Assembly (NCBI GenBank): GCA_017442155.1
Contig: JAFSAU010000016.1
Location: forward strand, 1-64,000
Origin: Clostridia bacterium
GTDB lineage: Bacteria > Bacillota > Clostridia > UMGS1883 > UMGS1540
Direction: 5' to 3'
DNA: 64,000 nt
In this document: piece by piece, positions 10,768 through 29,011 of the stretch
How the letters are laid out: each line of letters starts with the position of its first letter
How positions within the stretch are numbered: the first letter of the stretch is position 1
Notes under the pieces: model-generated
Databases searched by the model: none
Seen by the model: only the letters and a program-made list of their open reading frames with translations
What the model was told of the DNA's origin: nothing
Translations under genes and position numbers: made by a program

Positions 10768-13700
10768 ATGAAAAAAGCATTGACAAAATTTTTCTCTCTT
10801 TTTCTGGTGCTCACTATGCTTATAGGGCTGGGAGTAACAGCGGCTGAGACCGAACACGTAAAAAACGGAAGCTTTGAAGAGGTGAAGGATGACGGGAGCC
10901 CTTCGGGCTGGACGTTTTCCGGCGGTAAATTCGGCACCGACTTTTTTCTGGATGAAGATGCAAAAGAGGGAAGTAAAGCACTTAAGATAAAAACCGAAGC
11001 GGACTCTGTGTTTGCCTCACAGTCCATCGGAACGCTTGTAGAAGGAAAAAAATACAAGGTTTCCTTCTGGGTGAAGGTGATGGAGCAGTACGGAAACGGT
11101 GTTGCGATAAAGCTGGAGCTCAGGGATGATGACTCCATGCTCCAGAATGGACAGCTGCAGCAGGATTATCCGAGTATGGCAAAAAAACGCTGGTTGAATT
11201 ATACGTTTGATTTTACTGCACCTCAGGGTATAAAAAAGGCAATTTTGCTCGTGCGGTTTTATGGCGGCGGCGAAGTGTTCTATGATGCTGTATCCTTAAT
11301 TGGTGAAGGCAGCAGTGCGGTCGTAGAGGCTGAGCCGCAGAAGCCGGCGGAGAATACAGAAAAGAAAGAGGAAACGGTGACTGCTCCGGTACAGCAACCG
11401 GCGCAGGGAAAAGAAAACGTTAAAAACGGAAGCTTTGAAAGTCTGAAGGAAGATGGGTCGCCCAAAAATTGGACTTTCTCCGGTGGAGCTTTCGGAACGG
11501 ATTTTCATATTTCAAAAGAAAATACAAAAGATGGGGAAAATGGACTTAAAATAAAAACCTCGGCATCCTCGGTTTTTGCTTCACAGGCAGCGTCGGTTGT
11601 TGGTGGAGTAAAATACACGCTTTCCTTCTGGACCAAGGTTTTGGAGCAGGGCGGAAAAGGTGCGGCACTGAAAGTGGAATTTTTGTCCACTGACGGGGGA
11701 ACGAAAAATCTGGGGGCAGCTGTCGCAATTCAGAAAGAGTATACGGATATTAAAAAGAAGGAATGGGTGCAGGAGGCCTTTGAATTCACAGCACCCGAGG
11801 GAGCCTCAAGAGCAGTGATTCTCCTGCGGTTCTACGGCGGAGGAGAAGCGTATTACGATGCTGTATCTCTGATTGGCGGCGAAGCGGATGTCCCCGCAGA
11901 TGCCAAGCCGGTCATTACAGAGGCAAAGCCTCCTGTAGACGGGCAGTCAAATCTGGTGAAAAACAGTAACCTTGAAACACTGCTTTCGGATGGCAGGGTT
12001 GAAAACTGGAGCGAAGTTTTCAATAATGATACTAAAATTGTAGGAACATCAACGGATGCATACAGCGGGAATAACAGTATCCGCATTCAGAATGACGACT
12101 CCAAGCAGCCCTGGGCCAGACAGACAATCACCGAAGGCATTGTGGAGGATGCGGAATATACCACAACGGCATGGGTGAAAACCTCCGGTGCGGAAACCAT
12201 TAAATTCAAATGGGAATTCAGAAGAAGAAACGACAGAATCGGCGATGATTATTTCATCTCCGGCGAGCATACAGATGCACTGAAGACAACGCCCGGCGTA
12301 TGGACGAAGGTAGTCGCAACAACACGTATTCCTGCGGAATGTAAGGTGGTTGACCTGTATGTACGGCTTTTTGGTGAGGGAGACGTACTTTGGGATGATG
12401 TTGAGTTCTACATGACGGAACAGCCGCCCATAATGTATTCTGACAGTGATGTGTATTATTATACGGAGTGGGTGCTCGGCAAAGCTTCTGTCGAAATCAA
12501 TGACTATTACCCCATTGCGGCAGACAGCCGTGTGGAATTTGTGCTCCGGGACGGCGAAACCGTTTTGAATAGTGCAACCACTGCACTCACGGGGACAAAA
12601 GCAGAGTACGAATTCAAGCTTTCCTATCTTGCGGAAATCGGTAAGGAATATTTCATTGACGTTATATATAAGGACGCGGCCGGAGCCGTAATCGATAAAA
12701 AGACAGAGTCTGTTTACAGATATAACAGACCGACAAGGCTGAATGAGGATGGTCTCATCATTGAAAACGGGGAAGTGTTCACACCTGTTATAGGCTATCA
12801 TGTTCCGTTTGAAGCACTTTCCAAAGTCGCCGCGGCAGGTATTAATACTGTACAGAGCTATGCCTCCAGAAATGCGGAAGGGCGTGTCGCAAACTCCACG
12901 GATATTCCGTACCTTTTAGAGTATCTGGATGAAGCGCATAAATACAACATTAAGGTTCTTGTAGTACTGTATCCGAATATGCTTCCTGCGGGACATCCCA
13001 ATAATGCAGAGAAAACGAAGGCTTGCGTCGCAGCGGTAAAAGACCATCCGGCCACGCTCGGATATATGGTAATGGATGAGCCGTATAACCATGTCGGCAC
13101 AAACGGGGCTACCTACGAAGACTTTGACAACTGGCTGCAGGCCTCTTATAAGGTGATTCGTGACATAGACCCGAATAATGTTGTATTCGCTTGCCTTACC
13201 GGCTACAGACAGGAGGTTGCGATAAAGTTTGTGGATATTATGGGCCGTGACCCGTATCCGCCTTCCAATCGCCAGATGAGCATCTATGTTTCCGATAACG
13301 TAGCTTCGGCGACAGATGTGGCAGCATGCAGAAAGCCTGTCTGGGTTATCAACTGTGCTACGACGATAGCAGGTGGGTATACCCCCAATAATAACGATGT
13401 ACGTCACATGTCCTATCAGGCTCTTTTTGAAGGAGCAAACGCACTCGGCTGGTACAATGTTGCTGCCGGAAAAGAGGGAACTATCAATATTCCCAAGCCT
13501 ATCTGGGACAGAGAGGGAATTTGGGAAGGCGTTGAATCCTTTGCCGCAAATGAACAGGAAGATGCTTTTAAGCACTTTATAACCGGAGAGTATCCGTTAT
13601 TTGCCGGCTCACAGCAACCGGATGCTACATACTGGTACAGAGCCTTTGTGAAAAACGGAGAGCTGTATGTAATTGCGCTGAGCCGTTCGACGGGAGAAAT

Positions 13701-14439
13701 TCAGGTTGAAATACCGCTTGTAAGCTATGACGGAAGCATTAAGATTGATGGCTTTAAAGCGACCCCTGATTCCTTCAGCGGTTTGGCAGAGCTGTCTGAC
13801 ACCGGCGCGCTTCGATTTACAATGGAACCGGAACAGGTGATTCGGTTTAAGGTTGTACCGACGTCCGCAGTAGATTTCAGTGCACTGACTACAGATGCAT
13901 ACCGCGACCTGGCAAATTATCCCTGGGCTGTAAATCAAATCAAACAGATAGCAGAAAAAGGTATTGCAAATCATAAGGGCTACAGAAGCTTTGTACCCGG
14001 CGAAAAAATCACCAGAGCTGATTTTGCGTATTTCTTAATCAGAACGCTGGGTCTCTCGTCTGATGCAACGGAAATTTTTGCAGATGTAGACCCGGATGCC
14101 TACTACGCAAAGGAAATGGCAATCGGCAAGGCTTTGGGAATTTTGAAGGGTGTCGGCGACGATAAGTATAATCCGTATGCTGAAATATCAAGACAGGATA
14201 TGATGGTAATCTGCGCACGGGGTATGCGGTATGCCTCAAAGCTCGGAGAGGGTGGTACGCTTGATACGGTTTCGGCCTTCACCGATAAGGACCTGATTGC
14301 ATCCTATGCAGTGGAAGACATAGCCGCAATGGTAAGAGAACAGATTGTAATCGGCAATGCCGACGGAACAATCAATCCTCTCGGAAATGCAACGCGTGCG
14401 GAAGCTGCTGTAATCATGTCAAGAATTTTAAACAAATAA
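10768..14439 (+). CDS. SLH-anchored multi-CBM protein with glycosidase-like barrel (giant A)
   Basis: The 1223-residue surface protein starts with a signal peptide (about 1-26). Three jelly-roll carbohydrate-binding-like domains follow (about 28-178, 215-372, 395-550), the first two close duplicates sharing VKNGSFE, SVFASQ and LLRFYGGGE. After an Ig-like segment (about 555-660), a TIM-barrel-like domain spans about 665-1000 with a probable acid/base glutamate E771 in GYMVMDEPYNH and a later DPYP motif. Three SLH repeats (about 1035-1223, ending ATRAEAAVIMSRIL) should tether it to wall polymer. A clan GH-A-like fold is inferred; I do not recognise a named family, and binding without catalysis remains possible. 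Confidence 0.8.
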   Translation: MKKALTKFFSLFLVLTMLIGLGVTAAETEHVKNGSFEEVKDDGSPSGWTFSGGKFGTDFFLDEDAKEGSKALKIKTEADSVFASQSIGTLVEGKKYKVSFWVKVMEQYGNGVAIKLELRDDDSMLQNGQLQQDYPSMAKKRWLNYTFDFTAPQGIKKAILLVRFYGGGEVFYDAVSLIGEGSSAVVEAEPQKPAENTEKKEETVTAPVQQPAQGKENVKNGSFESLKEDGSPKNWTFSGGAFGTDFHISKENTKDGENGLKIKTSASSVFASQAASVVGGVKYTLSFWTKVLEQGGKGAALKVEFLSTDGGTKNLGAAVAIQKEYTDIKKKEWVQEAFEFTAPEGASRAVILLRFYGGGEAYYDAVSLIGGEADVPADAKPVITEAKPPVDGQSNLVKNSNLETLLSDGRVENWSEVFNNDTKIVGTSTDAYSGNNSIRIQNDDSKQPWARQTITEGIVEDAEYTTTAWVKTSGAETIKFKWEFRRRNDRIGDDYFISGEHTDALKTTPGVWTKVVATTRIPAECKVVDLYVRLFGEGDVLWDDVEFYMTEQPPIMYSDSDVYYYTEWVLGKASVEINDYYPIAADSRVEFVLRDGETVLNSATTALTGTKAEYEFKLSYLAEIGKEYFIDVIYKDAAGAVIDKKTESVYRYNRPTRLNEDGLIIENGEVFTPVIGYHVPFEALSKVAAAGINTVQSYASRNAEGRVANSTDIPYLLEYLDEAHKYNIKVLVVLYPNMLPAGHPNNAEKTKACVAAVKDHPATLGYMVMDEPYNHVGTNGATYEDFDNWLQASYKVIRDIDPNNVVFACLTGYRQEVAIKFVDIMGRDPYPPSNRQMSIYVSDNVASATDVAACRKPVWVINCATTIAGGYTPNNNDVRHMSYQALFEGANALGWYNVAAGKEGTINIPKPIWDREGIWEGVESFAANEQEDAFKHFITGEYPLFAGSQQPDATYWYRAFVKNGELYVIALSRSTGEIQVEIPLVSYDGSIKIDGFKATPDSFSGLAELSDTGALRFTMEPEQVIRFKVVPTSAVDFSALTTDAYRDLANYPWAVNQIKQIAEKGIANHKGYRSFVPGEKITRADFAYFLIRTLGLSSDATEIFADVDPDAYYAKEMAIGKALGILKGVGDDKYNPYAEISRQDMMVICARGMRYASKLGEGGTLDTVSAFTDKDLIASYAVEDIAAMVREQIVIGNADGTINPLGNATRAEAAVIMSRILNK

Positions 14440-14447
14440 TTCTTTTG

Positions 14448-14517
14448 ACGGTCGGGTAGCCCTGGGTGTGTCGAAAAAATGGGATAGAGAGACACACCCG
14501 GCCCGGCCGTTTTTTTC
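14448..14517 (+). terminator. Strong terminator after giant A
   Basis: A long hairpin with GGGTGTGTC (14464-14472) paired to GACACACCC (14491-14499), plus outer ACGG/CCGT pairing, is followed by seven T residues. It ends transcription 17 bases before the next gene's start, so giant B needs readthrough or its own promoter. Confidence 0.85.
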
Positions 14518-14533
14518 AGAAAGGATAATAACA

Positions 14534-17500
14534 ATGAAAAAAATAGCAGCAATATTCATTTTTCTTTTTTTACTGCTGCCGATAGGACAGGGATTTATCT
14601 TTGCAGAAGAGACGGGGACATCATATATTGAGGCTGAGCACGTGAACAATTCCGGCTTTGAACGGTTAAGCGGCGGCGTGCCGAATAACTGGTCTTTTTC
14701 CGGAGATACCTTCGGCAACGGCTTCTCTATAGACAGTACCGATGCCTATGGTGGGTCTAATTCGCTGAAAATCAATACCACAGCTTCTTCGGTTTACGCC
14801 TCGCAAAGTGTTAAAACCCTTATAGGCGGCGAAACCTACAGAATGCGCTTTGGGGTTAAGGTTGTCCGGCAAAATGGAAAAGGGGCGGAAATCAAGCTTG
14901 AATTCAAAGCAAAAGATTCTCTTGGAAATATAACCTCAAGCGAGGTCAGAAAAACCTATACGGATATAACAAAAGGCTCCTGGCAGAATCTGCAGTTTGA
15001 TTTTACAGCACCGGAAGGCATTACGCAGGCCTCTCTTCTCGTCAGATATTATGGAGGCGGAGAGGTGTTCTATGATGATGTTTCCATCATAGGCGCATCC
15101 GTGGGACCGGTATTTAAGGAGGCCGCAGACGGTGTGAGCAATATTGTTCCGAACAGCAACATGGAACAAGTGAAGAACAATATGCCGTATCACTGGTATG
15201 GGTCAAATGCATCCATGGTTTCTATGGCGACAGATAACCCACACAGCGGCACAAACAGTATTAAAATAAGTACAGAGAGCTCCTCGGCCGATCCCTCCGC
15301 AAGGGTGACAGTTGACGGAATGATTGAGAATGCTGAATATCAGACAACTGCATGGATAAAAACATCTTCTGCGGATGATGTTATAAAGTTCAAGTGGGAA
15401 TTTCGGAGAAACACCGTGAGTGTGGGCGATTATTTTATAGTTGGCTATCATTCCGAAGAAATGAAAGCATTGCCCGGTGTCTGGCAAAAGGTGGTTATGC
15501 GGACGGTTGCGCCACCCGAAACCACATGTATGTATCTGCATGTGAGACTGATAGGCAGCGGCGAAGTATATTTTGACGATGTGGAAGTCTGTATGACGGA
15601 ATTGCCTCCTAAAATGGATGTCGAAAGTGATGTTTTCCACTATTCTGATTGGGAAACGGGAACAGTGAAAGCTTCTTTGAATCCGTATTATGCTGTACCG
15701 GCAGGGGCAACGGTAGACTTTGTTTTAAAAGACGGAGATACAGTTTTAAGTCAGCAACCCGGCACGGCTGTTTCGGCAGATGCAGAGTTCAATTTTGATT
15801 TGGATTTGCTTTCGGTATTAGGCAAAGAGTATACAGTAGACGTAATCTATAAAGACGCAGAAGGAAATTTGTTAGATCAAAAGACCCATGCAGTTTATAA
15901 ATATAATCGGCCGTCCATTCTGGATGAAGATGGAAATATTATAAAGAATAATAAAATATTCACCCCCGTCATAGGATATCATGTGCCGGTGAGCTTATTG
16001 CCGGAAGTTTCACGTGCGGGTGTAAATACAGTGCAGAGTGATAATGCCGGCGGCGCAACCTCAACCAATATTCCCGTGCTTCTTGACTATCTGGATGCCG
16101 CATATGAAAATAATATAATGGTCATGGTGGTGCTGTATCCCGGCATGGTGCCGGCGGGACATCCTGATAATATACAGAAAACAAAGGATTGTGTTGCAGC
16201 CGTTAAAGACCACCCCGCGCTTCTTGGATATATGGTTATGGATGAGCCGTATAACCATTTAGGCGTAAACGGAACAACGATAAATGAAATTGAAGAATGG
16301 CTGAAGGTTTCCTACAAGATTATCCGCGATATTGACCCTGTGCACGTGGTTTACGCAACGCACACGGAGTACAGGCAGGAACGTTCCGTCAATTATGTGG
16401 ATGTTTTGGGACGTGACCCTTATCCCACTGGAAACAATTTGGAGTATGTTCATACCTATGTGGCTGACAAAACAAAATCCGCATGCCTGGCGGCCGGAGG
16501 GAAAAAGCCGGTTTGGGTTATAAACGCTGCCACATCCGTCGCGGGTGGATACACCCCCAACGCAAACGAAGTCCGGCATATGGCATACCAGGCACTGTTT
16601 GCCGGTGCAAAGGGTCTTGGGTGGTATAATATAAAAGCAGGAACGGGCGTCAATATTCCGCTTCCGATATGGCAGAGAACGGGAATCTGGGAAGGCGTTG
16701 AATGCTTTGCGCAAAGGGAGCAGGAGGATGCGTTTAAACACTTTATAACCGGAGAATATCCACTCTTCAATAGCCAGCAGGGGGAGAATGATTCTGTCTG
16801 GTGGAGAAGCTTTAAGAAGGAGAATGAGTATTACTTCGTCATTTTAAACCGGGAAAACGAGGAGAATACAATCAGCATCCCCCTTATAAGCGATGATGGG
16901 GAAGAGGAAATAAATTCTTTCCGTGCCGAAGCGGCGGATATAACCGACTCCCCGGATATTTCCGGCTTCGGAACGCTCAGTGTTACACTTTCGCCCGGCC
17001 AGGTTGTAAGATATAAGGTAACACCGACTCCATATATCAGGTCGTCGTATGACATTACGTCCCCATCCGGGGGAGCAACATTGCTGGCCGCAAAGCGTTC
17101 TGATTTTGAGAATGCAGTGATAGGCACTGACTGGGTTATCTCTGATTCCTCGATTACAGGTGTAAATGCAGAAATTATTACAGGGGATGCACCGGCACCG
17201 GGTGGCAGTAACTGTCTTGAAATGACTTCCCAGGGGAATGCATTCTACGTGCATAGAATCATGCAGGAAAACCAGAATACGGCAAAAGATGCTCCTGTAA
17301 GCGGAAAGATTTTGGATGCATTCTCAAACAGTACACTTTTAACCGGTCGGGCAACCGATACCCTCAGAGTCAGTGCCCTGGTGAAAACAGAGGACTTGGA
17401 AGAAGGTGTTCTGCCGTATATTGAGGTGTCCTTCTCAGCTGCAAGCGCATTGTATAACACGTATGACTTTCAAAGTAAACCAATTGATACGAATGGTGAA

Positions 17501-17974
17501 TGGAAAGAAATTGACTGTGTTTATAAGGTTCCTGATTATGTAGCAGGCAGACCCAGAAACTATCAGATCCGACTGCATTTGCCGGGAGAGGGAACAGTGT
17601 ACTGGGACCATGTAAGAATCTGGACAGATGATTTTAATTATTATGGACCGCAGAATGCCGCGTCAACCCTAACGGAACTTACTGCGGGAACAGTTTATGC
17701 TTCCTATGAGCCGATTGATTCTGCCCACGCTGTAGGTGACACAGTGCAAATGCTGACCTGTTTATATGAAACAATTGGAAATACGAAAGAACTCGTATCC
17801 GTGTCGGTTGATTCCACAACGAAAACAGCGGGAGAAGCAATACAGCTTGTAACAATGATAGAGGTGCCTGAAAGCAGTGTCAGAAAAGGGACTTCCATTG
17901 AAACCTTTTTGCTGGATTCTGTAACAGGAATGAAGCCGATGGCAAGAAAAGAAATATTAAAAAAGAGCAATTAA
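14534..17974 (+). CDS. Secreted multi-CBM protein with glycosidase-like barrel, no SLH (giant B)
   Basis: The 1146-residue paralogue of giant A begins at the ATG at 14534 (AAAGGATAATAACA upstream) with a signal peptide. It has two carbohydrate-binding-like domains (about 25-185 and 195-355), an Ig-like segment, and the same barrel (about 465-800) with E571 in GYMVMDEPYNH. Unlike its three relatives it lacks SLH repeats. Instead it ends with a domain pair (about 835-1146) nearly the same as the small secreted protein at 9727. The tail ends SIETFLLDSVTGMKPMARK, resembling a short C-terminal module I associate with clostridial exoproteins. It may be released or held through glycan binding. Confidence 0.8.
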   Translation: MKKIAAIFIFLFLLLPIGQGFIFAEETGTSYIEAEHVNNSGFERLSGGVPNNWSFSGDTFGNGFSIDSTDAYGGSNSLKINTTASSVYASQSVKTLIGGETYRMRFGVKVVRQNGKGAEIKLEFKAKDSLGNITSSEVRKTYTDITKGSWQNLQFDFTAPEGITQASLLVRYYGGGEVFYDDVSIIGASVGPVFKEAADGVSNIVPNSNMEQVKNNMPYHWYGSNASMVSMATDNPHSGTNSIKISTESSSADPSARVTVDGMIENAEYQTTAWIKTSSADDVIKFKWEFRRNTVSVGDYFIVGYHSEEMKALPGVWQKVVMRTVAPPETTCMYLHVRLIGSGEVYFDDVEVCMTELPPKMDVESDVFHYSDWETGTVKASLNPYYAVPAGATVDFVLKDGDTVLSQQPGTAVSADAEFNFDLDLLSVLGKEYTVDVIYKDAEGNLLDQKTHAVYKYNRPSILDEDGNIIKNNKIFTPVIGYHVPVSLLPEVSRAGVNTVQSDNAGGATSTNIPVLLDYLDAAYENNIMVMVVLYPGMVPAGHPDNIQKTKDCVAAVKDHPALLGYMVMDEPYNHLGVNGTTINEIEEWLKVSYKIIRDIDPVHVVYATHTEYRQERSVNYVDVLGRDPYPTGNNLEYVHTYVADKTKSACLAAGGKKPVWVINAATSVAGGYTPNANEVRHMAYQALFAGAKGLGWYNIKAGTGVNIPLPIWQRTGIWEGVECFAQREQEDAFKHFITGEYPLFNSQQGENDSVWWRSFKKENEYYFVILNRENEENTISIPLISDDGEEEINSFRAEAADITDSPDISGFGTLSVTLSPGQVVRYKVTPTPYIRSSYDITSPSGGATLLAAKRSDFENAVIGTDWVISDSSITGVNAEIITGDAPAPGGSNCLEMTSQGNAFYVHRIMQENQNTAKDAPVSGKILDAFSNSTLLTGRATDTLRVSALVKTEDLEEGVLPYIEVSFSAASALYNTYDFQSKPIDTNGEWKEIDCVYKVPDYVAGRPRNYQIRLHLPGEGTVYWDHVRIWTDDFNYYGPQNAASTLTELTAGTVYASYEPIDSAHAVGDTVQMLTCLYETIGNTKELVSVSVDSTTKTAGEAIQLVTMIEVPESSVRKGTSIETFLLDSVTGMKPMARKEILKKSN

Positions 17975-21616: not shown

Positions 21617-21647
21617 GAATGTATTACAAAAGAAAAAGGTGAACAAA

Positions 21648-22820
21648 ATGAAAAAATGGGTTGCGGGAGGTCTGGTGTTTCTTCTTTTGGTGTTAGCCGT
21701 TCCTGCTTTTGGGGCTGCTGTAACAATTTATGCACCGGACGGGCGTACCGCGATAGTGCCGGAAGAGGAAGTTTCTGCGTATCTGGCGGCAGGCTGGTAT
21801 GCAACATTTGAAGAAACAATAAAAACAATTTACGCTCCGGATGGACGGTTTGCGTCGGTATTCCTGGCGGACGTGCAGGGCTACATGGATGCAGGGTGGT
21901 ACGGGTCGTATGAAGAAACGATACAAACAATATATGCTCCTGACGGCCGGACAGCTACTGTTTTTCTGGCAGAGGTGCCGGAATATCTTGCGGCGGGATG
22001 GTATGGCAGTTACGAAGAAACGATAAAAATGCTGTATGCACCAGACGGTCGTCAGATATCCGTATATCTGACTGAAGTGAATTCCTATCTGGCCGTTGGC
22101 TGGTTTGAAAACCGCGATGATACCATACAAACGTTGTATGCTCCCGGCGACAGAACTGTAACGGTTTACAAAAGTCAGGTTCCTTCCTTTGTGGCTGCAG
22201 GCTGGAGTGAAACACCTGCACTTGGTCCTGCAGTGGCACTGACATTCGATGACGGTCCCAGCGGGATACATACTTATTCAATTCTGGACACGCTGTCCGC
22301 CTATGGAGCGAAAGCGACGTTTTTTACGTTAGGAAGTCAGGTGAATGCCTATCCGGGTGTGGTACGGCGTGCTAAGGAGCTGGGTTGTGAAATTGGAAGC
22401 CATACATATTCTCATCCGAATCTGAACACCTGCTCCACTTCTAAAATTCAAACTGAAATTCAATCTGCTGCACAGGCAATCCGGAATGCAACCGGTGCAG
22501 GACCGACTGTGTTTCGTCCGCCGTACGGGAACCACAATGCTACAGTGCGCTCGTCCGTCGGCGTACCGCTGATTCTCTGGAACGTTGACACGCTGGACTG
22601 GAAAAGCAGAAATGCACAGTCGGTTGCCGCGCATGTTTTATCCCATGCCTCTGACGGTGATATCATTCTGATGCACGATATTTATGGTTCTACAGCAGAA
22701 GCGGTGAAAATTATCGTTCCGGCTCTCGTTCAGCGTGGCTTTCGTCTGGTTACAGTCAGCGAGCTTGCAACAGAAAAGGGATATGCCATGAACGCCGGAA
22801 AGGTGTACTACGGTTTTTAA
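21648..22820 (+). CDS. Secreted polysaccharide deacetylase with five N-terminal repeats
   Basis: The 390-residue protein has a signal peptide or anchor (1-22). Five consecutive ~34-residue repeats follow (about 25-190), each built on YAPDGR, an acidic-V position and YLAAGW ending in EETI. The C-terminal NodB-type domain (about 195-375) has all catalytic motifs: TFDDGP, HTYSHPN, RPPYG, WNVDTLDW and LMHDIY. It probably removes acetyl groups from peptidoglycan or another wall polymer outside the cell; the repeats may bind that polymer. AAAGGTGA before the ATG at 21648 fixes the start. The fifth repeat is the most diverged (APGDR). Confidence 0.92.
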   Translation: MKKWVAGGLVFLLLVLAVPAFGAAVTIYAPDGRTAIVPEEEVSAYLAAGWYATFEETIKTIYAPDGRFASVFLADVQGYMDAGWYGSYEETIQTIYAPDGRTATVFLAEVPEYLAAGWYGSYEETIKMLYAPDGRQISVYLTEVNSYLAVGWFENRDDTIQTLYAPGDRTVTVYKSQVPSFVAAGWSETPALGPAVALTFDDGPSGIHTYSILDTLSAYGAKATFFTLGSQVNAYPGVVRRAKELGCEIGSHTYSHPNLNTCSTSKIQTEIQSAAQAIRNATGAGPTVFRPPYGNHNATVRSSVGVPLILWNVDTLDWKSRNAQSVAAHVLSHASDGDIILMHDIYGSTAEAVKIIVPALVQRGFRLVTVSELATEKGYAMNAGKVYYGF

Positions 22821-22830
22821 TGAATTACAG

Positions 22831-22860
22831 CCCTGAGACAGAGTTTTTCAGGGTTTTTTT
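22831..22860 (+). terminator. Terminator after the deacetylase gene
   Basis: CCCTGA (22831-22836) pairs with TCAGGG (22848-22853) and is followed by seven T residues. Confidence 0.85.
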
Positions 22861-22933: not shown

Positions 22934-22962
22934 TTGAATTTTCTGCTTTTGTATGGTATACT
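22934..22962 (+). promoter_or_regulatory. Sigma-A promoter of the zinc-ribbon gene
   Basis: TTGAAT (22934-22939) and TATACT (22957-22962) are separated by 17 bases, 30 bases before the ATG at 22992. The serine hydrolase gene downstream probably shares this promoter. Confidence 0.8.
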
Positions 22963-22991: not shown

Positions 22992-24053
22992 ATGTTTTGT
23001 AAAAATTGCGGAAATCAAATTCCGGACGAAGCAAAATTCTGTAAGCATTGTGGGGGAAGCCTGCAGGGGGTGAGTGCACCTTCTGTCAATACTTGTTCAG
23101 CTTGTGGTGCACAGAATACGGAAGGAGCACAGTTTTGTCGTGCGTGCGGCAAACAGATGGGAGGTAGTGCGCCTGTACAACCGTCTGCTCCTATGGGACA
23201 GCCCGTGCCCCCGAAAAAGAAGAACACAGGCCTGATTGTGGGTATAATCGCAGCTGCAGTGATATTGCTGGTCGCTGTGGCCTTGGGCGTGGTATACGCA
23301 TTCGGGTTTTTAGACGGAGAAAAAGAAGAGAGTGGAAAAAAACCTTTGCCGACTGCTTCGCCTCAAATCACAGTCGCTCCCACGGCAACACCGTCTGTTG
23401 ATGTGGCAAAGAACATTGACGCATATCTGGCAGGAAAGGGCCAGTCGTATAATGTGAGTGTTGCGGTGTACGATAATACAACAAAAAAGATGTACTGCAG
23501 TTCCACCAGTGAACTGTCCTATCCGGCATGGGGATTCTATTTGCCCATTTATTTAGCGGCAGACGATGCAGGCGTCGACGCTATCACCCAGGAGGGGGTA
23601 ATGAGTAGTGATATCGGCGTCTGTAACCAGGCTGGAAATGCTGTCATCACAGCCTTTGGCGGTCCGCACGGTGTAACACAGTATCTGGCCCGGAATTATA
23701 ACGCCAGTGTTACTTCCTATGGCAGACGATTTGCGGATGTTAACTCCACAGGTGAAAATTATACAAATGCAAAAGAAGCGGCACAGTTTCTGGCAGTATT
23801 AAATGGCCGCGGTGAATGTACAAAGCTTTCCTATAATCCCTCTTCGTTTGGAATTACCGCACCGTATGGAACGGGGTTTTACTGCCAGGTCGGGTCGGAA
23901 AACAAAGCGAAGTTGAATAACCTGAATCTGTTCGCTGTTGTAAAGGGACAGAAGTCAGATTACTGCATTGCTGTCTTGTCACAGAACGGTGCAGGCAAAC
24001 AGGTGATGAATGAGCTTCTGCAATTGATTCATAATGATATGGAAAGGGCATAA
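22992..24053 (+). CDS. Double zinc-ribbon membrane protein with degenerate beta-lactamase-like domain
   Basis: The 353-residue protein begins with two zinc ribbons (Cys 3, 6, 17, 20 and 35, 38, 49, 52), then a Pro-rich linker, a membrane segment (about 80-105), a Thr/Pro stalk (118-136) and an extracellular domain (about 138-353). The last domain aligns by eye with the intact serine hydrolase next door but lacks its catalytic motifs: SxxK becomes WGFY (about 180-183), SDN becomes VCN (210-212) and KTG becomes QVG (299-301). It is therefore probably a binding or sensing pseudoenzyme, with ribbons inside and the sensor outside. The downstream gene starts 2 bases after its stop. Confidence 0.8.
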   Translation: MFCKNCGNQIPDEAKFCKHCGGSLQGVSAPSVNTCSACGAQNTEGAQFCRACGKQMGGSAPVQPSAPMGQPVPPKKKNTGLIVGIIAAAVILLVAVALGVVYAFGFLDGEKEESGKKPLPTASPQITVAPTATPSVDVAKNIDAYLAGKGQSYNVSVAVYDNTTKKMYCSSTSELSYPAWGFYLPIYLAADDAGVDAITQEGVMSSDIGVCNQAGNAVITAFGGPHGVTQYLARNYNASVTSYGRRFADVNSTGENYTNAKEAAQFLAVLNGRGECTKLSYNPSSFGITAPYGTGFYCQVGSENKAKLNNLNLFAVVKGQKSDYCIAVLSQNGAGKQVMNELLQLIHNDMERA

Positions 24054-24054
24054 G

Positions 24055-24954
24055 ATGAAAAAGTTTTTGCTGTTTACAGGGGGACTTGCTGTCCTGGTAC
24101 TTATTTTTTCTCTGGTTGTATTTTTTAATGAAAGAGAGGAGAAACCGAGAAAAACGACTGAGAACATAGTCGCAGTTTCGCCTGTACCGACCGAGCTTGT
24201 GCCTGAACATACTGAAATGCCGGAAGAAACTCCCTCAGAAGCAGAAAGGGAAATCAAAGCATTGATGGATGATGCCTTTTCCGGTGTGAGCGGCACCTGT
24301 CACTGGGGGGTGTACACCTTCGGTGATGTCATGTACTGCCGTAATGATACCGCATCCGTGCCATCGGCAAGTGTTATTAAACTGTTTATTATGGAGTATG
24401 TTTTCGATCGCATGAATGTCGGCGAACTCGAATACGATAGCACGATTGCCGGCACACGTGTAAAAACGCTTCTGGAAAACATGATCACCGTCAGTGACAA
24501 CAGTGCCACGAATGCCTTCATTGACTATTTCGGAATGGATACACTGAACGCCTATTTTGCGGCAGAGGGATATGCCGACACACGGTTGGAACGGCGGATG
24601 CTTGATTATGATGCTATGGCGGCAGGAAAAGAAAATTATACCTCTGTGTGGGATGTTACGCAGTTTTTGAAAAAAGTATATAATAACCAATCCGAGTGGA
24701 CGTGCGCGGATATGCTGGGAATTTTAAAGCGTCAGCAGGTGAAAACCAAGATCCCGCGAAAGCTTCCGGGGGGCGTTACTGTAGCCCACAAAACCGGAGA
24801 GCTTAGCACTGTGGAGAATGATGTCGGAATCATCTTTACGGAGAAAATGGATTTTGCTGTGGTTTTCTTATGCAGTGATTTATCCTCCACAAATGGTGCA
24901 CGCGAAGCCATCAGTTCCGCTTCCCGCGAATTATACGATTATCTTACAAAATAA
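24055..24954 (+). CDS. Membrane-anchored serine hydrolase, class A beta-lactamase-like
   Basis: The 299-residue protein has an N-terminal anchor (4-24), a Pro/Glu-rich stalk (40-62) and a penicillin-recognising domain. All three serine-hydrolase motifs are intact: S106-x-x-K109 (SVIK), S147-D-N149 and K246-T-G248. L178-E179 may be the omega-loop glutamate. It could hydrolyse beta-lactams or act on peptidoglycan peptides; resistance cannot be concluded from sequence. Its start two bases after the zinc-ribbon pseudoenzyme implies coupled expression, and a strong terminator follows. Confidence 0.88.
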   Translation: MKKFLLFTGGLAVLVLIFSLVVFFNEREEKPRKTTENIVAVSPVPTELVPEHTEMPEETPSEAEREIKALMDDAFSGVSGTCHWGVYTFGDVMYCRNDTASVPSASVIKLFIMEYVFDRMNVGELEYDSTIAGTRVKTLLENMITVSDNSATNAFIDYFGMDTLNAYFAAEGYADTRLERRMLDYDAMAAGKENYTSVWDVTQFLKKVYNNQSEWTCADMLGILKRQQVKTKIPRKLPGGVTVAHKTGELSTVENDVGIIFTEKMDFAVVFLCSDLSSTNGAREAISSASRELYDYLTK

Positions 24955-24973: not shown

Positions 24974-25006
24974 AACCGTCTCCACGCTTCGGAGGCGGTT
25001 TTTTTT
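24974..25006 (+). terminator. Terminator after the serine hydrolase gene
   Basis: AACCGTCTCC pairs with GGAGGCGGTT (one G-U) across a short loop, followed by a T run. Confidence 0.88.
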
Positions 25007-25045: not shown

Positions 25046-25089
25046 ATTTGTTGCGGATTACAATTTAATAAAGAACAGGAGTGATGAAA

Positions 25090-26913
25090 ATGTGCGGTAT
25101 AGTTGGATATACCGGCTATCGTCAGTGTACCCCGATTTTGCTTGAGGGACTGAAAAGTCTTGAGTATCGCGGGTACGATTCTTCAGGAATTGCGGTGCTG
25201 GAGAACGACAGTTTGCATGTGGAAAAGGCGGAAGGACGCCTTGCGGTCTTAGCGGATAGGCTGCAGGAAGGCGTACTTTTGCCTGGGAAAACAGGGATTG
25301 GGCATACCCGCTGGGCTACGCACGGAAAGCCTTCGGATGAAAATGCCCATCCGCATGTCAGCGAAAACGGGAAAATTGCGGTTGTACATAATGGCATCAT
25401 TGAAAACTACAGGAAGCTGAAGGAAGAGCTTATAGGAAAAGGGTATCATTTCGTTTCGGATACGGATACGGAAATTTTCGCCCATCTTCTTGACTATTAT
25501 TTCCGTGGGAACATTCTGGAAGCCATTTATAAAATGATGCGGAAAGTGAATGGGGCCTACGCTCTCGGAATTTTATGTGACGAGATGCCGGGGACGGTTA
25601 TCGCCGTCAAAAAGGACAGCCCGCTTGTGGTAGGACTTGGAAAGGATGAAAATTTTATTGCCTCTGACGTCCCGGCGATTCTGAAACACACACGGACGGT
25701 TTTCTATCCGGAGGACGGCGAGATTGTAATACTTCGACCGGACAGTGTTGAAGTGTACGGAAAGGACGGAGAACGCATCGAAAAAGAAGTGGAGGCAGTG
25801 GCCTGGGATGCGTCTGCGGCAGAAAAGGGTGGATATCCGCATTTTATGATGAAAGAAATGATGGAGCAGCCACGCGCAATGGCAGATACTATTTTACCGC
25901 GTCTTGCAGGCAGTGTTGCGCAACCGGAGATTTCCGGCCTTTCTGAAGCTTTTTTACGAAATGTGGATAAAATCTATATTGTGGCCTGCGGTTCTGCGTA
26001 TCATGTGGGCGTTGCGGCTAAATATATTTTAGAAGAAATGACCGGCAAAAACGTAGAGCCTGATCTGGCCTCTGAATTCCGGTATCGTGTGCCCATTCTT
26101 ACAGAGCATAGTCTGGTTATTATCATCAGTCAGTCCGGCGAGACGGCAGATAGTATTGCGGCTATGCGGGAAGCGAAACGCCGTGGTGCACATGTTCTTT
26201 CTATTGTAAATGTACTGGGCAGTACTATCGCCAAGGAATCGGACGATGTGCTGTACACATGGGCCGGCCCGGAAATTGCCGTGGCCACAACAAAGGCTTA
26301 TTCTGCCCAGCTTTGTGCGGTGTATGTGTTAGCCTTGTATATAGCGGAAATTCTGGGAACAATAAACCTTGAGGAAGCAGAACGTTTTGCTGCCGCTTTG
26401 CGCGCTTTGCCGGAAAAAGCAGAGGAACTGCTTTCAGAACATTCAAAAATTCAGTACGCAGCTTCCAGGTTGTCCTCCAGCCATAACATCTTTTTTATCG
26501 GCCGTAATCTTGAATTTGCGGCAGCAATGGAGGGGTCGCTAAAGTTAAAGGAGATTTCCTATATTCATTCTGAAGCCTATGCTGCCGGAGAATTGAAGCA
26601 TGGCACAATTTCTCTGATTGAGGAAGGTACACCTGTTGTGGCACTGATGACAAGTGGTGCTTTAACGGATAAAATGCGCAGTAATATACGGGAGGTAAAG
26701 GCGAGGGGCGCATTTGTTCTTGCGCTTGCAGATGTAGATGTGGAGATTGGAGAGGAGGCAGATGTCGTCCTTCGGATTCCGAAAACACACCATCTTCTTC
26801 GTACCTCTCTTGCAGTTCTCCCGCTCCAGCTTCTGGCCTATTATGTAGCCCTTGTGCGGGGATGCGATATAGATAAGCCGAGAAATTTAGCGAAATCTGT
26901 CACTGTTGAGTAA
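25090..26913 (+). CDS. glmS: Glucosamine-6-phosphate synthase (isomerizing)
   Basis: GlmS makes glucosamine-6-phosphate from fructose-6-phosphate and glutamine, the first step toward UDP-GlcNAc. The ATG at 25090 places the N-terminal nucleophile Cys2 in MCGIVGY, with AGGAGTG upstream; nearer ATG/GTG codons would block it. The glutaminase domain fills about 1-240 (GHTRWATHGKPS, HNGIIENY). Two SIS isomerase domains follow (ACGSAYHVG, SQSGETADS, EAYAAGELKHGTISLIE), ending with KPRNLAKSVTVE. Length 607 is standard. Confidence 0.97.
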   Translation: MCGIVGYTGYRQCTPILLEGLKSLEYRGYDSSGIAVLENDSLHVEKAEGRLAVLADRLQEGVLLPGKTGIGHTRWATHGKPSDENAHPHVSENGKIAVVHNGIIENYRKLKEELIGKGYHFVSDTDTEIFAHLLDYYFRGNILEAIYKMMRKVNGAYALGILCDEMPGTVIAVKKDSPLVVGLGKDENFIASDVPAILKHTRTVFYPEDGEIVILRPDSVEVYGKDGERIEKEVEAVAWDASAAEKGGYPHFMMKEMMEQPRAMADTILPRLAGSVAQPEISGLSEAFLRNVDKIYIVACGSAYHVGVAAKYILEEMTGKNVEPDLASEFRYRVPILTEHSLVIIISQSGETADSIAAMREAKRRGAHVLSIVNVLGSTIAKESDDVLYTWAGPEIAVATTKAYSAQLCAVYVLALYIAEILGTINLEEAERFAAALRALPEKAEELLSEHSKIQYAASRLSSSHNIFFIGRNLEFAAAMEGSLKLKEISYIHSEAYAAGELKHGTISLIEEGTPVVALMTSGALTDKMRSNIREVKARGAFVLALADVDVEIGEEADVVLRIPKTHHLLRTSLAVLPLQLLAYYVALVRGCDIDKPRNLAKSVTVE

Positions 26914-27688: not shown

Positions 27689-29011
27689 GTGGATTTATTA
27701 GTAATACTTCTTGCAAAAGTAATAGGATTTTTAAGCGGACTATTTGGTGGAGGAACGAATCTGCCGGGCCAGGTTGCGCTGAAATTACGGCCCAATATTC
27801 TGAAACGTCTTGTCCGGGGGTATCGTGTAATCCTGGTCACCGGCACAAACGGAAAAACTACTACCACGTCTATTTTGCAGAATATTCTGCGGCAAACGGG
27901 GAAGAGAGCAGTGAACAGTACCAGCGGTGCCAACATGAAGGGCGGCGTGGTATCTTGTTTAATCCGCAATTTTCCTTTGTTTGGGAAGGTAGATGGCGAT
28001 TATGCGGTGCTGGAAGTAGATGAAGCCTATATGCGCCATATTACAGCGGAAATCAGCCCCGAGGTCATTGCGGTAACCAACATTTTCCGGGATCAGCTGG
28101 ACCGCTACGGGGAGACAGAAAAAACCCTTGCGCTTATTGAGGAAGCGTGTAAAAACGCACCCGACGCCATGCTCGTACTGAATGCAGATGAAGCACTTTT
28201 AGGCGATTTTGTGCCGGAAGGAAGGCATTTTTACTATGGATTTTCCGTACCGCTTCGGAAAGATGCAGAAAAGACGGAAGAGATATATTGTAAAAAATGC
28301 CGTGCTCCGCTGGAATTGTCTTATGTGACCTTCAATCATCTGGGGAATTATTCCTGTCCCGTTTGTGGCTTTCATCGCCCAAGGCTGGACCTGGCTGTTG
28401 ACCACATAAACTCTGTATCGGCAGACAGCTCGGATATCACAATGTGTGGGGTTTCTGTTGCGATACCTCAAGCCGGTGCCTATAATATTTATAATGCACT
28501 TTGCGCCGCTGCCTGCGCCCGTGTGCTTGGTGTCTCCGATTCGGAGATTTGTGCCGGAATTGCCGGGCAGAAAAGTAAGTTCGGCAGACAGGAGACCGTG
28601 CAGGTAGAAAAGGCAAGTGTGCGCATTATTCTGATAAAAAATCCAGCCGGTGCGGCAGAGGCCATTGCCTCCGTTCTGCCGGACAAAAACAACGTATCCC
28701 TTGGTGTTCTTCTTAACGATAACGTGGGAGATGGGACGGATGTTTCCTGGATTTATGATGTGGATTTCGAGTGTCTGAATCAAATGGAATGCAAAAGATT
28801 TTTCGTTGGAGGAACCCGTGCCTGGGATATGGCTGTTCGTCTGAAAACGGCGGGGTTTGAGCACTTGTCCGTTTGCGAAAGTTATGAAGAGTTGCTATCT
28901 GCGCTGCAGGAAACCGAAGGCAGGGTGTATCTGTTTGTGACATACTCGGCCATGACAGGCTTCCGTAAGTTTCTTCATCGTAAGAAATATATCCGGAAGT
29001 TATGGTTTTAG
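27689..29011 (+). CDS. murT: Lipid II isoglutaminyl synthase subunit MurT
   Basis: MurT with its amidotransferase partner GatD amidates the D-Glu of lipid II. The 440-residue protein has a Mur-ligase ATP site (VTGTNGKTTTTS), the inserted four-Cys zinc ribbon (CKKC and CPVC), and the C-terminal DUF1727 region with DGTDVSWIYDVDFE and SAMTGFR. It begins at a GTG behind AAAGGGACGG. Unusually, no gatD follows; the next gene is a YdcZ-type transporter, so the partner must be elsewhere or absent. Confidence 0.93.
   Translation: MDLLVILLAKVIGFLSGLFGGGTNLPGQVALKLRPNILKRLVRGYRVILVTGTNGKTTTTSILQNILRQTGKRAVNSTSGANMKGGVVSCLIRNFPLFGKVDGDYAVLEVDEAYMRHITAEISPEVIAVTNIFRDQLDRYGETEKTLALIEEACKNAPDAMLVLNADEALLGDFVPEGRHFYYGFSVPLRKDAEKTEEIYCKKCRAPLELSYVTFNHLGNYSCPVCGFHRPRLDLAVDHINSVSADSSDITMCGVSVAIPQAGAYNIYNALCAAACARVLGVSDSEICAGIAGQKSKFGRQETVQVEKASVRIILIKNPAGAAEAIASVLPDKNNVSLGVLLNDNVGDGTDVSWIYDVDFECLNQMECKRFFVGGTRAWDMAVRLKTAGFEHLSVCESYEELLSALQETEGRVYLFVTYSAMTGFRKFLHRKKYIRKLWF

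Follow-up and report, generated by a model that had tools for sequence, protein, structure and literature searches.

We asked what a catalytically dead relative of a beta-lactamase-like domain, carried outside the membrane by a zinc-ribbon protein, does beside a gene encoding an intact version of the same domain. The two genes, which we call gene 1 and gene 2, are in tandem on the + strand of a 64,000-nucleotide stretch of a Clostridia bacterium genome (contig JAFSAU010000016.1, assembly GCA_017442155.1), referred to here as the window (Table 1). A preliminary description had put their start codons 2 bases apart; instead, the gene 1 stop codon (24051-24053) and the gene 2 ATG at 24055 are separated by one base. 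A promoter-like site (TTGAAT-17-TATACT, with TG ahead of the second hexamer) precedes gene 1 and terminator-like hairpins flank the pair, which fits a two-gene operon as far as consensus matches go, promoter-like sites not being enriched in the region (4 found versus 4.3 expected from shuffles). The two genes may be co-transcribed.

Table 1. Positions in the window of the two genes, their sequence features and the flanking signals
Feature	Position	Strand	Basis or remark
Terminator-like hairpin past the upstream deacetylase gene, ahead of gene 1	22829..22855	+	Consensus scan only
Promoter-like site	22934..22962	+	Consensus match only
Gene 1: zinc ribbons, membrane span, inactive beta-lactamase-fold domain, 353 aa	22992..24053	+	
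Zinc ribbon 1: C3, C6, C17, C20	22998..23051	+	Pfam; invariant in 6/6 relatives
Zinc ribbon 2: C35, C38, C49, C52	23094..23147	+	Pfam; absent from the five relatives
Gene 1 membrane span, about residues 82-100	23235..23291	+	Best hydrophobic window
Gene 1 outer domain, predicted class A beta-lactamase fold	23394..24050	+	Profile comparison, AlphaFold, Foldseek, VIA
WGFY replacing SxxK (SVIK in gene 2)	23529..23540	+	Alignment to gene 2
VCN replacing SDN	23619..23627	+	Cys and Asn invariant in 6/6
QVG replacing KTG	23886..23894	+	Alignment to gene 2
Gene 2: membrane-anchored class A-like/PBP-A-like serine acyl-enzyme candidate, 299 aa	24055..24954	+	
Gene 2 N-terminal membrane span	24064..24120	+	Hydrophobic window
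SVIK (SxxK motif) in gene 2	24370..24381	+	Alignment
SDN motif in gene 2	24493..24501	+	Alignment
Met at the Glu166 position (PBP-A Leu158)	24598..24600	+	Alignment
KTG motif in gene 2	24790..24798	+	Alignment
Terminator-like hairpin and T run past gene 2	24985..24997	+	Consensus match only

The upstream neighbor encodes a polysaccharide deacetylase by Pfam (21639-22820), and the downstream neighbor is a glmS-type gene (25081-26913) whose product has SIS and GATase domains. The deacetylase contains at least four "YAPDGR...GWY" repeats, and similar repeats were seen at the N termini of solitary beta-lactamase-like proteins at six loci (L095, L096, L099, L106, L110, and L112; 6 of 36 open reading frames [ORFs] tested).

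Pfam identified two CxxC..CxxC ribbons in gene 1 (Zn_Ribbon_1, E = 1.4e-14; DZR, E = 4.9e-11), and the protein has one hydrophobic span, in agreement with the cytosolic zinc ribbons and single membrane span first described for it. The number of ribbons varies, with two in the window protein and one in each of five relatives. A Pfam search of gene 1 at E values up to 1 found no M56 protease, kinase, or PASTA domain.

Single-sequence Pfam searches left the gene 1 outer domain below the cutoff for Beta-lactamase2 (PF13354; E = 0.064) and gave a strong match for gene 2 (E = 3.7e-44). When profiles of six relatives each were compared, the two outer domains matched over 125 columns (probability 95.3, E = 2.2e-8). 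We built AlphaFold models from alignments of six sequences each, comprising the window protein and those of loci L016 to L020; mean pLDDT was 91.5 for gene 1 and 92.6 for gene 2. Against class A beta-lactamases, the gene 1 model gave a Foldseek E value of 2.4e-10 and a VIA Z score of 23.7 (rmsd 2.4, 206 residues aligned), and the gene 2 model gave 5e-19 and 31.9 (rmsd 1.7, 231 aligned). For both outer domains the prediction is a class A beta-lactamase fold. Their similarity had been proposed from the sequence, with agreement of the predicted folds as its test, and the models and the profile comparison both bear it out.

Alignment of the outer domains also upheld the reported loss of all three catalytic motifs in gene 1 (SVIK to WGFY, SDN to VCN, and KTG to QVG) and their retention in gene 2. 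The replacements are themselves conserved: AWGFYLP is invariant in all six gene 1 sequences, as are Cys-Asn at the second site and Gly at the third. The three motif blocks make up 31 of 219 positions and hold 18 of the 33 invariant residues of gene 1 (P = 7.8e-10); for comparison, 17 of 51 invariant residues of gene 2 fall in 29 of 230 positions (P = 4.8e-6). Conservation in gene 1 is highest in the altered cleft. From this pattern of residues, gene 1 appears to be dead as a beta-lactamase-type enzyme yet not decaying, its cleft having apparently been rebuilt and then kept.

We searched 391 genomes of the class for relatives of the gene 1 outer domain. Nine genomes matched at E values up to 0.01, and we dropped three as unrelated (G096:C368, G296, and G077; loci L009 to L011), which by eye held a long phosphatase-like secreted protein, a transporter, and an SLH/repeat-type protein. 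This left six genomes, the window's own included, and in all six (the window, L004, and L012 to L015) a gene 2 relative directly follows the gene 1 relative, so that the pairing proposed earlier is conserved. The six genomes belong to two families (f1 and f19), and the genes flanking the pair differ among them. The best six gene 2 relatives among the 391 genomes come from these same six genomes, and the gene 1 and gene 2 trees both group the window with L004 and L012 with L013 and L014, as would be expected of a pair that moves together. The distribution is patchy, with the pair in 2 of 6 genomes of the window's family and 6 of 391 of the class. The five relatives are metagenome-assembled genomes, three from goat gut, one from water deer gut, and one an Oscillospiraceae assembly. 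Viral contigs contained no relative of the gene 1 outer domain. A further search matched 10 genomes, nine of them other genomes with weak matches (E = 2.6e-5 to 7.5e-4), and the matches at L022, L023, L029, and L030, in four of these nine, proved to be ordinary hydrolases whose motifs are intact. The two genes are inherited as a pair, whose role is probably to sense or control the cell wall.

Gene 2 had been called an active beta-lactamase-like serine hydrolase. The intact SxxK, SDN, and KTG motifs agree with the likeness, but a beta-lactamase in the strict sense is not supported. We located the Glu166 column by aligning wild-type PBP-A and its L158E mutant to the gene 2 profile; Met occupies this column in all six gene 2 relatives, and none of the 95 aligned domains has Glu there. 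We considered gene 2 as a true class A beta-lactamase, which its motifs and fold would fit, and rejected this assignment on the Met at Glu166 and on an NCBIfam bla_class_A score of 64.9 bits against a cutoff of 200. Resistance surveys are likely to be misled where automatic annotation labels gene 2 a beta-lactamase.

Lacking an equivalent of Glu166, gene 2 resembles PBP-A, a DD-peptidase. Its closest solved structures are 4hes, 4ewf, and PBP-A. With PBP-A of Thermosynechococcus elongatus (tll2115) it shares the fold, the three motifs, and the absence of the omega-loop Glu, and with the Veillonella class A-like protein 4hes it shares the fold and the motifs. Unlike these two proteins, gene 2 is membrane anchored, has a shorter SxxK-to-SDN stretch, and is accompanied by a dead sister. 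A lipobox-like Cys was seen by eye in four of the six gene 2 relatives. The SxxK-to-SDN stretch spans 41 residues in gene 2 versus 59 to 65 in 33 of the 60 solitary relatives measured. PBP-A is described as a DD-carboxypeptidase and endopeptidase with specificity or preference for muropeptides carrying D-isoglutamine, the amidated form of D-isoglutamate (PMC11189452); its predicted D-isoglutamine selector, Glu96, has no assignable counterpart in the shortened stretch of gene 2. Amidated stem peptides are likely to be present in the window organism, since its genome encodes MurT (27689-29011 in the window; MurT_C, E = 3.2e-32) and, on another contig, a GatD-like amidotransferase of 237 aa (L179, 1492-2205; by eye). 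Three S11-type carboxypeptidase matches in the same genome make it unlikely that gene 2 is the sole DD-peptidase. Gene 2 would be a serine acyl-enzyme that resembles PBP-A, is anchored in the membrane, and most likely acts as a DD-peptidase on peptidoglycan stem peptides, and with such an activity it could also be acylated by beta-lactams.

A search of the same 391 genomes with the gene 2 profile matched 70, and we scanned the ORFs at the matching loci. We counted 15 dead domains, the window's included, a lower bound with weaker rows such as G171, G213, G270, G336, G143, and G092 left out. All 15 have lost Ser70, Lys73, and the Lys of KTG, and 14 of the 15 genes adjoin a beta-lactamase-like gene that keeps Ser70, Lys73, Ser130, and KTG. 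The carrier is a zinc-ribbon protein in ten cases and a kinase or kinase-like protein in five, and for three of these five the partner carries a PP2C-like part. Searching with a dead-domain profile matched 66 of the 391 genomes at 1e-8; we took only the eight with E values below 1e-40 as relatives, and seven of these were paired, a count that is not independent because the profile was built from seven of the same proteins.

In four further genomes (G043, G137, G096, and G104), a dead domain belongs to a zinc-ribbon membrane protein whose gene lies immediately before that of an intact-motif enzyme, which in G104 carries SHN instead of SDN. Both the ribbon and PF13354 are Pfam significant in these four zinc-ribbon proteins, and their motifs have changed from Ser to Ala, from Lys to Asn or Tyr, and from KTG to HNA, HNG, or HNV, with DN kept. 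At another locus (L098, 3451-5613), a zinc-ribbon membrane protein whose outer part is unrelated and repeated lies directly upstream of an enzyme that has SEN for SDN and is otherwise largely intact.

In three genomes (G292, G374, and G357), the dead domain forms the outer end of a kinase-like membrane protein whose kinase-like part has its best Protein Data Bank match to 4eqm, listed as a protein kinase (E = 4.5e-19); HRD and DFG are degenerate by eye in the two complete proteins. The product of the next gene has a PP2C-like part at its N terminus (2j82, a Ser/Thr phosphatase; E = 3.1e-7) together with an outer domain that is intact. Gene pairs in this order lie at L073 (57-4183), L076 (3508-7511), and L080 (2943-6349), and we found no description of this type of kinase/phosphatase pair in the open-access literature. 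The remaining two carriers have a zinc ribbon, a kinase, a span, and a dead domain in one protein. That of G237 (L172) has no adjacent enzyme gene, and a PP2C-like enzyme is encoded on another contig; that of G403 overlaps the gene for a membrane-anchored enzyme. G403 belongs to a draw made at phylum level instead of class level. Four genomes of that draw matched, of which we read G403 and G483, the latter an ordinary enzyme, and left out G518 and G753, which belong to the same genus as G483. The kinases of G237 and G403 have HRD and DFG; proteins of this layout, with an N-terminal zinc ribbon and a dead beta-lactamase-fold outer domain, lie at L172 (5815-7917) and L174 (1495-3687).

We made a quick tree of 86 of the 95 domains, leaving out fragments shorter than 200 residues and two odd rows, and a careful tree of 53 domains that held all paired rows and 22 solitary ones chosen by hand to spread over the quick tree. 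With the motif columns removed, the careful tree split 14 dead domains from the 39 other rows with support of 100/99. The G403 dead domain falls among the intact-motif enzymes, which means that activity was lost at least twice on that tree. An approximately unbiased (AU) test did not reject local duplication as the origin of the gene 1 and gene 2 domains (P = 0.116), and because branches in the dead-domain tree are long, inferences about origin carry little weight.

Several known systems share parts of this arrangement. BlaR1 and MecR1 have a domain of the penicillin-recognizing fold outside the cell and an output inside, BlaR1 being a class D-like sensor on an M56 protease. Their likeness to gene 1 is in working only, as gene 1 has no M56 domain and its site is dead. 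PASTA kinases combine a wall-facing outer part with a PP2C partner, a layout matched by the G292, G374, and G357 pairs, in which the outer domain is a dead beta-lactamase fold and not PASTA. The window pair, by contrast, has no kinase, and PASTA proteins are present elsewhere in the window genome. Gene 1 shares its cytosolic ribbon, one span, and large outer part with the single-span zinc-ribbon membrane proteins TcaA and Llmg_0524 and differs from TcaA in having a dead beta-lactamase fold as its outer domain; the NCBIfam TcaA model scored 16.8 bits on gene 1 against a cutoff of 550, with the match limited to the inner end and the span. TcaA is described as affecting cross-linking and wall teichoic acid (PMC10328498), Llmg_0524 of Lactococcus as affecting wall integrity (PMC4628341), and a two-gene system has been noted in which a lipocone enzyme lies downstream of a single-span zinc-ribbon protein (PMC12419801). 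An inactive class A-fold protein of Burkholderia ambifaria, 5IHV, lacks the nucleophile and the base (PMC12073871); it is like gene 1 in being a beta-lactamase fold without catalytic residues, and the available part of that source mentions no partner enzyme or inner domain for it. In the open-access literature we found no description of a dead/active pair with a zinc ribbon or kinase, and a text search of the accessible text of PMC6213207 returned no mention of lactamase or zinc ribbon. Envelope sensing as such is already known; this combination of parts in an envelope-sensing or enzyme-regulating pair appears to be new.

We propose, at about even confidence, that gene 1 and gene 2 make up an envelope module of two proteins, in which a membrane-bound DD-peptidase-like enzyme is connected to the cytosol by a dead sister serving as sensor or regulator. 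Gene 1 would be the dead sister, its fold kept, its cleft rebuilt and constrained, and its outer domain tied through one span to the cytosolic zinc ribbons. The dead domain would bind gene 2, or the same wall ligand (a stem peptide or product), without turnover, and gene 1 would pass the bound state across the membrane to a binding partner of the zinc ribbon. A signaling role is favored by the dead domains found on kinases and kinase-like proteins beside intact-motif enzymes, which strengthens the original suggestion that gene 1 is a sensor or regulator; dead enzymes often turn into regulators. Against this, zinc-ribbon proteins may be scaffolds with no signaling role, and zinc-ribbon neighbors of the L098 type, with other outer domains, mean that the association of ribbon and enzyme may be independent of the dead domain. 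Also against it are the small size and patchy spread of the family, the dead-domain kinase L172 that lacks a neighboring enzyme gene, and the origin of all five named relatives from metagenome assemblies. More tentatively, and with the balance somewhat against it, an ancient dead lineage of the PBP-A/beta-lactamase fold, placed on membrane proteins with a zinc ribbon or a Ser/Thr kinase and each time accompanied by an intact sister, could be an unrecognized class of wall receptor that reads stem-peptide (or beta-lactam) status and reports to the cytosol through zinc-ribbon contacts or a kinase/PP2C output. If true, Clostridia would have a way of sensing wall chemistry distinct from PASTA kinases and BlaR1, and the pair offers a small testable system of two soluble outer domains.

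Gene 1 could instead be a structural partner (an activator, inhibitor, chaperone, or anchor) that sets the place or rate of gene 2, with the ribbon docking the pair to a cytosolic scaffold and no inward signal. We consider this fairly unlikely. Dead/active sister pairs often work by forming heteromers, the two genes are tightly adjacent in all six close relatives, and TcaA, with the same inner layout, is reported to change cross-linking and teichoic acid retention (PMC10328498), all of which would suit such a role. However, signaling more easily explains the related dead domains on kinases and kinase-like proteins, of which two have HRD and DFG. The pair might also be a beta-lactam sensor in which gene 1 reads the acylation of gene 2, slow to reverse for want of Glu166, and reports it inside. 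The kept SxxK, SDN, and KTG motifs combined with a Met at Glu166, as in proteins that stay acylated, and the solved penicillin acyl-enzyme of PBP-A (2j8y) are consistent with this idea. It is improbable, however, as solitary intact-motif relatives also lack Glu166, so that the loss is not special to the pair, and in the stretches read we saw no resistance gene next to the pair, whose neighbors in the window are the deacetylase and the glmS-type protein.

Two readings concern the gene 1 outer domain by itself. The rebuilt cleft, as the most conserved part of the domain and with its Cys and Asn at the SDN site invariant in all six sequences, might have gained a different catalysis around the new invariant W, Y, C, and N; we regard this as quite improbable, since the A5 set of related dead domains lacks that Cys and Trp and we recognized no known catalytic arrangement. 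That the domain is a decaying duplicate without a role, only the zinc-ribbon part mattering, is compatible with the AU result on local duplication, but the open frames and invariant cleft over two families of the class, together with the kept pairing, make it scarcely credible. The envelope module with a dead sensor or regulator is the reading that we prefer.

Other gene arrangements were seen at the loci read. At L122 (1168-4184), a kinase-like gene without a beta-lactamase domain is followed by a gene for a PP2C-like/beta-lactamase-like protein that has itself degraded motifs. At L074 (76-5760) and L039 (6143-9338), several zinc-ribbon membrane proteins with varied outer parts cluster around the enzyme gene. 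Elsewhere in the window, 10768-14439 and 14468-17974 encode a tandem pair of large, similar secreted proteins, the first with apparent SLH repeats at its end.
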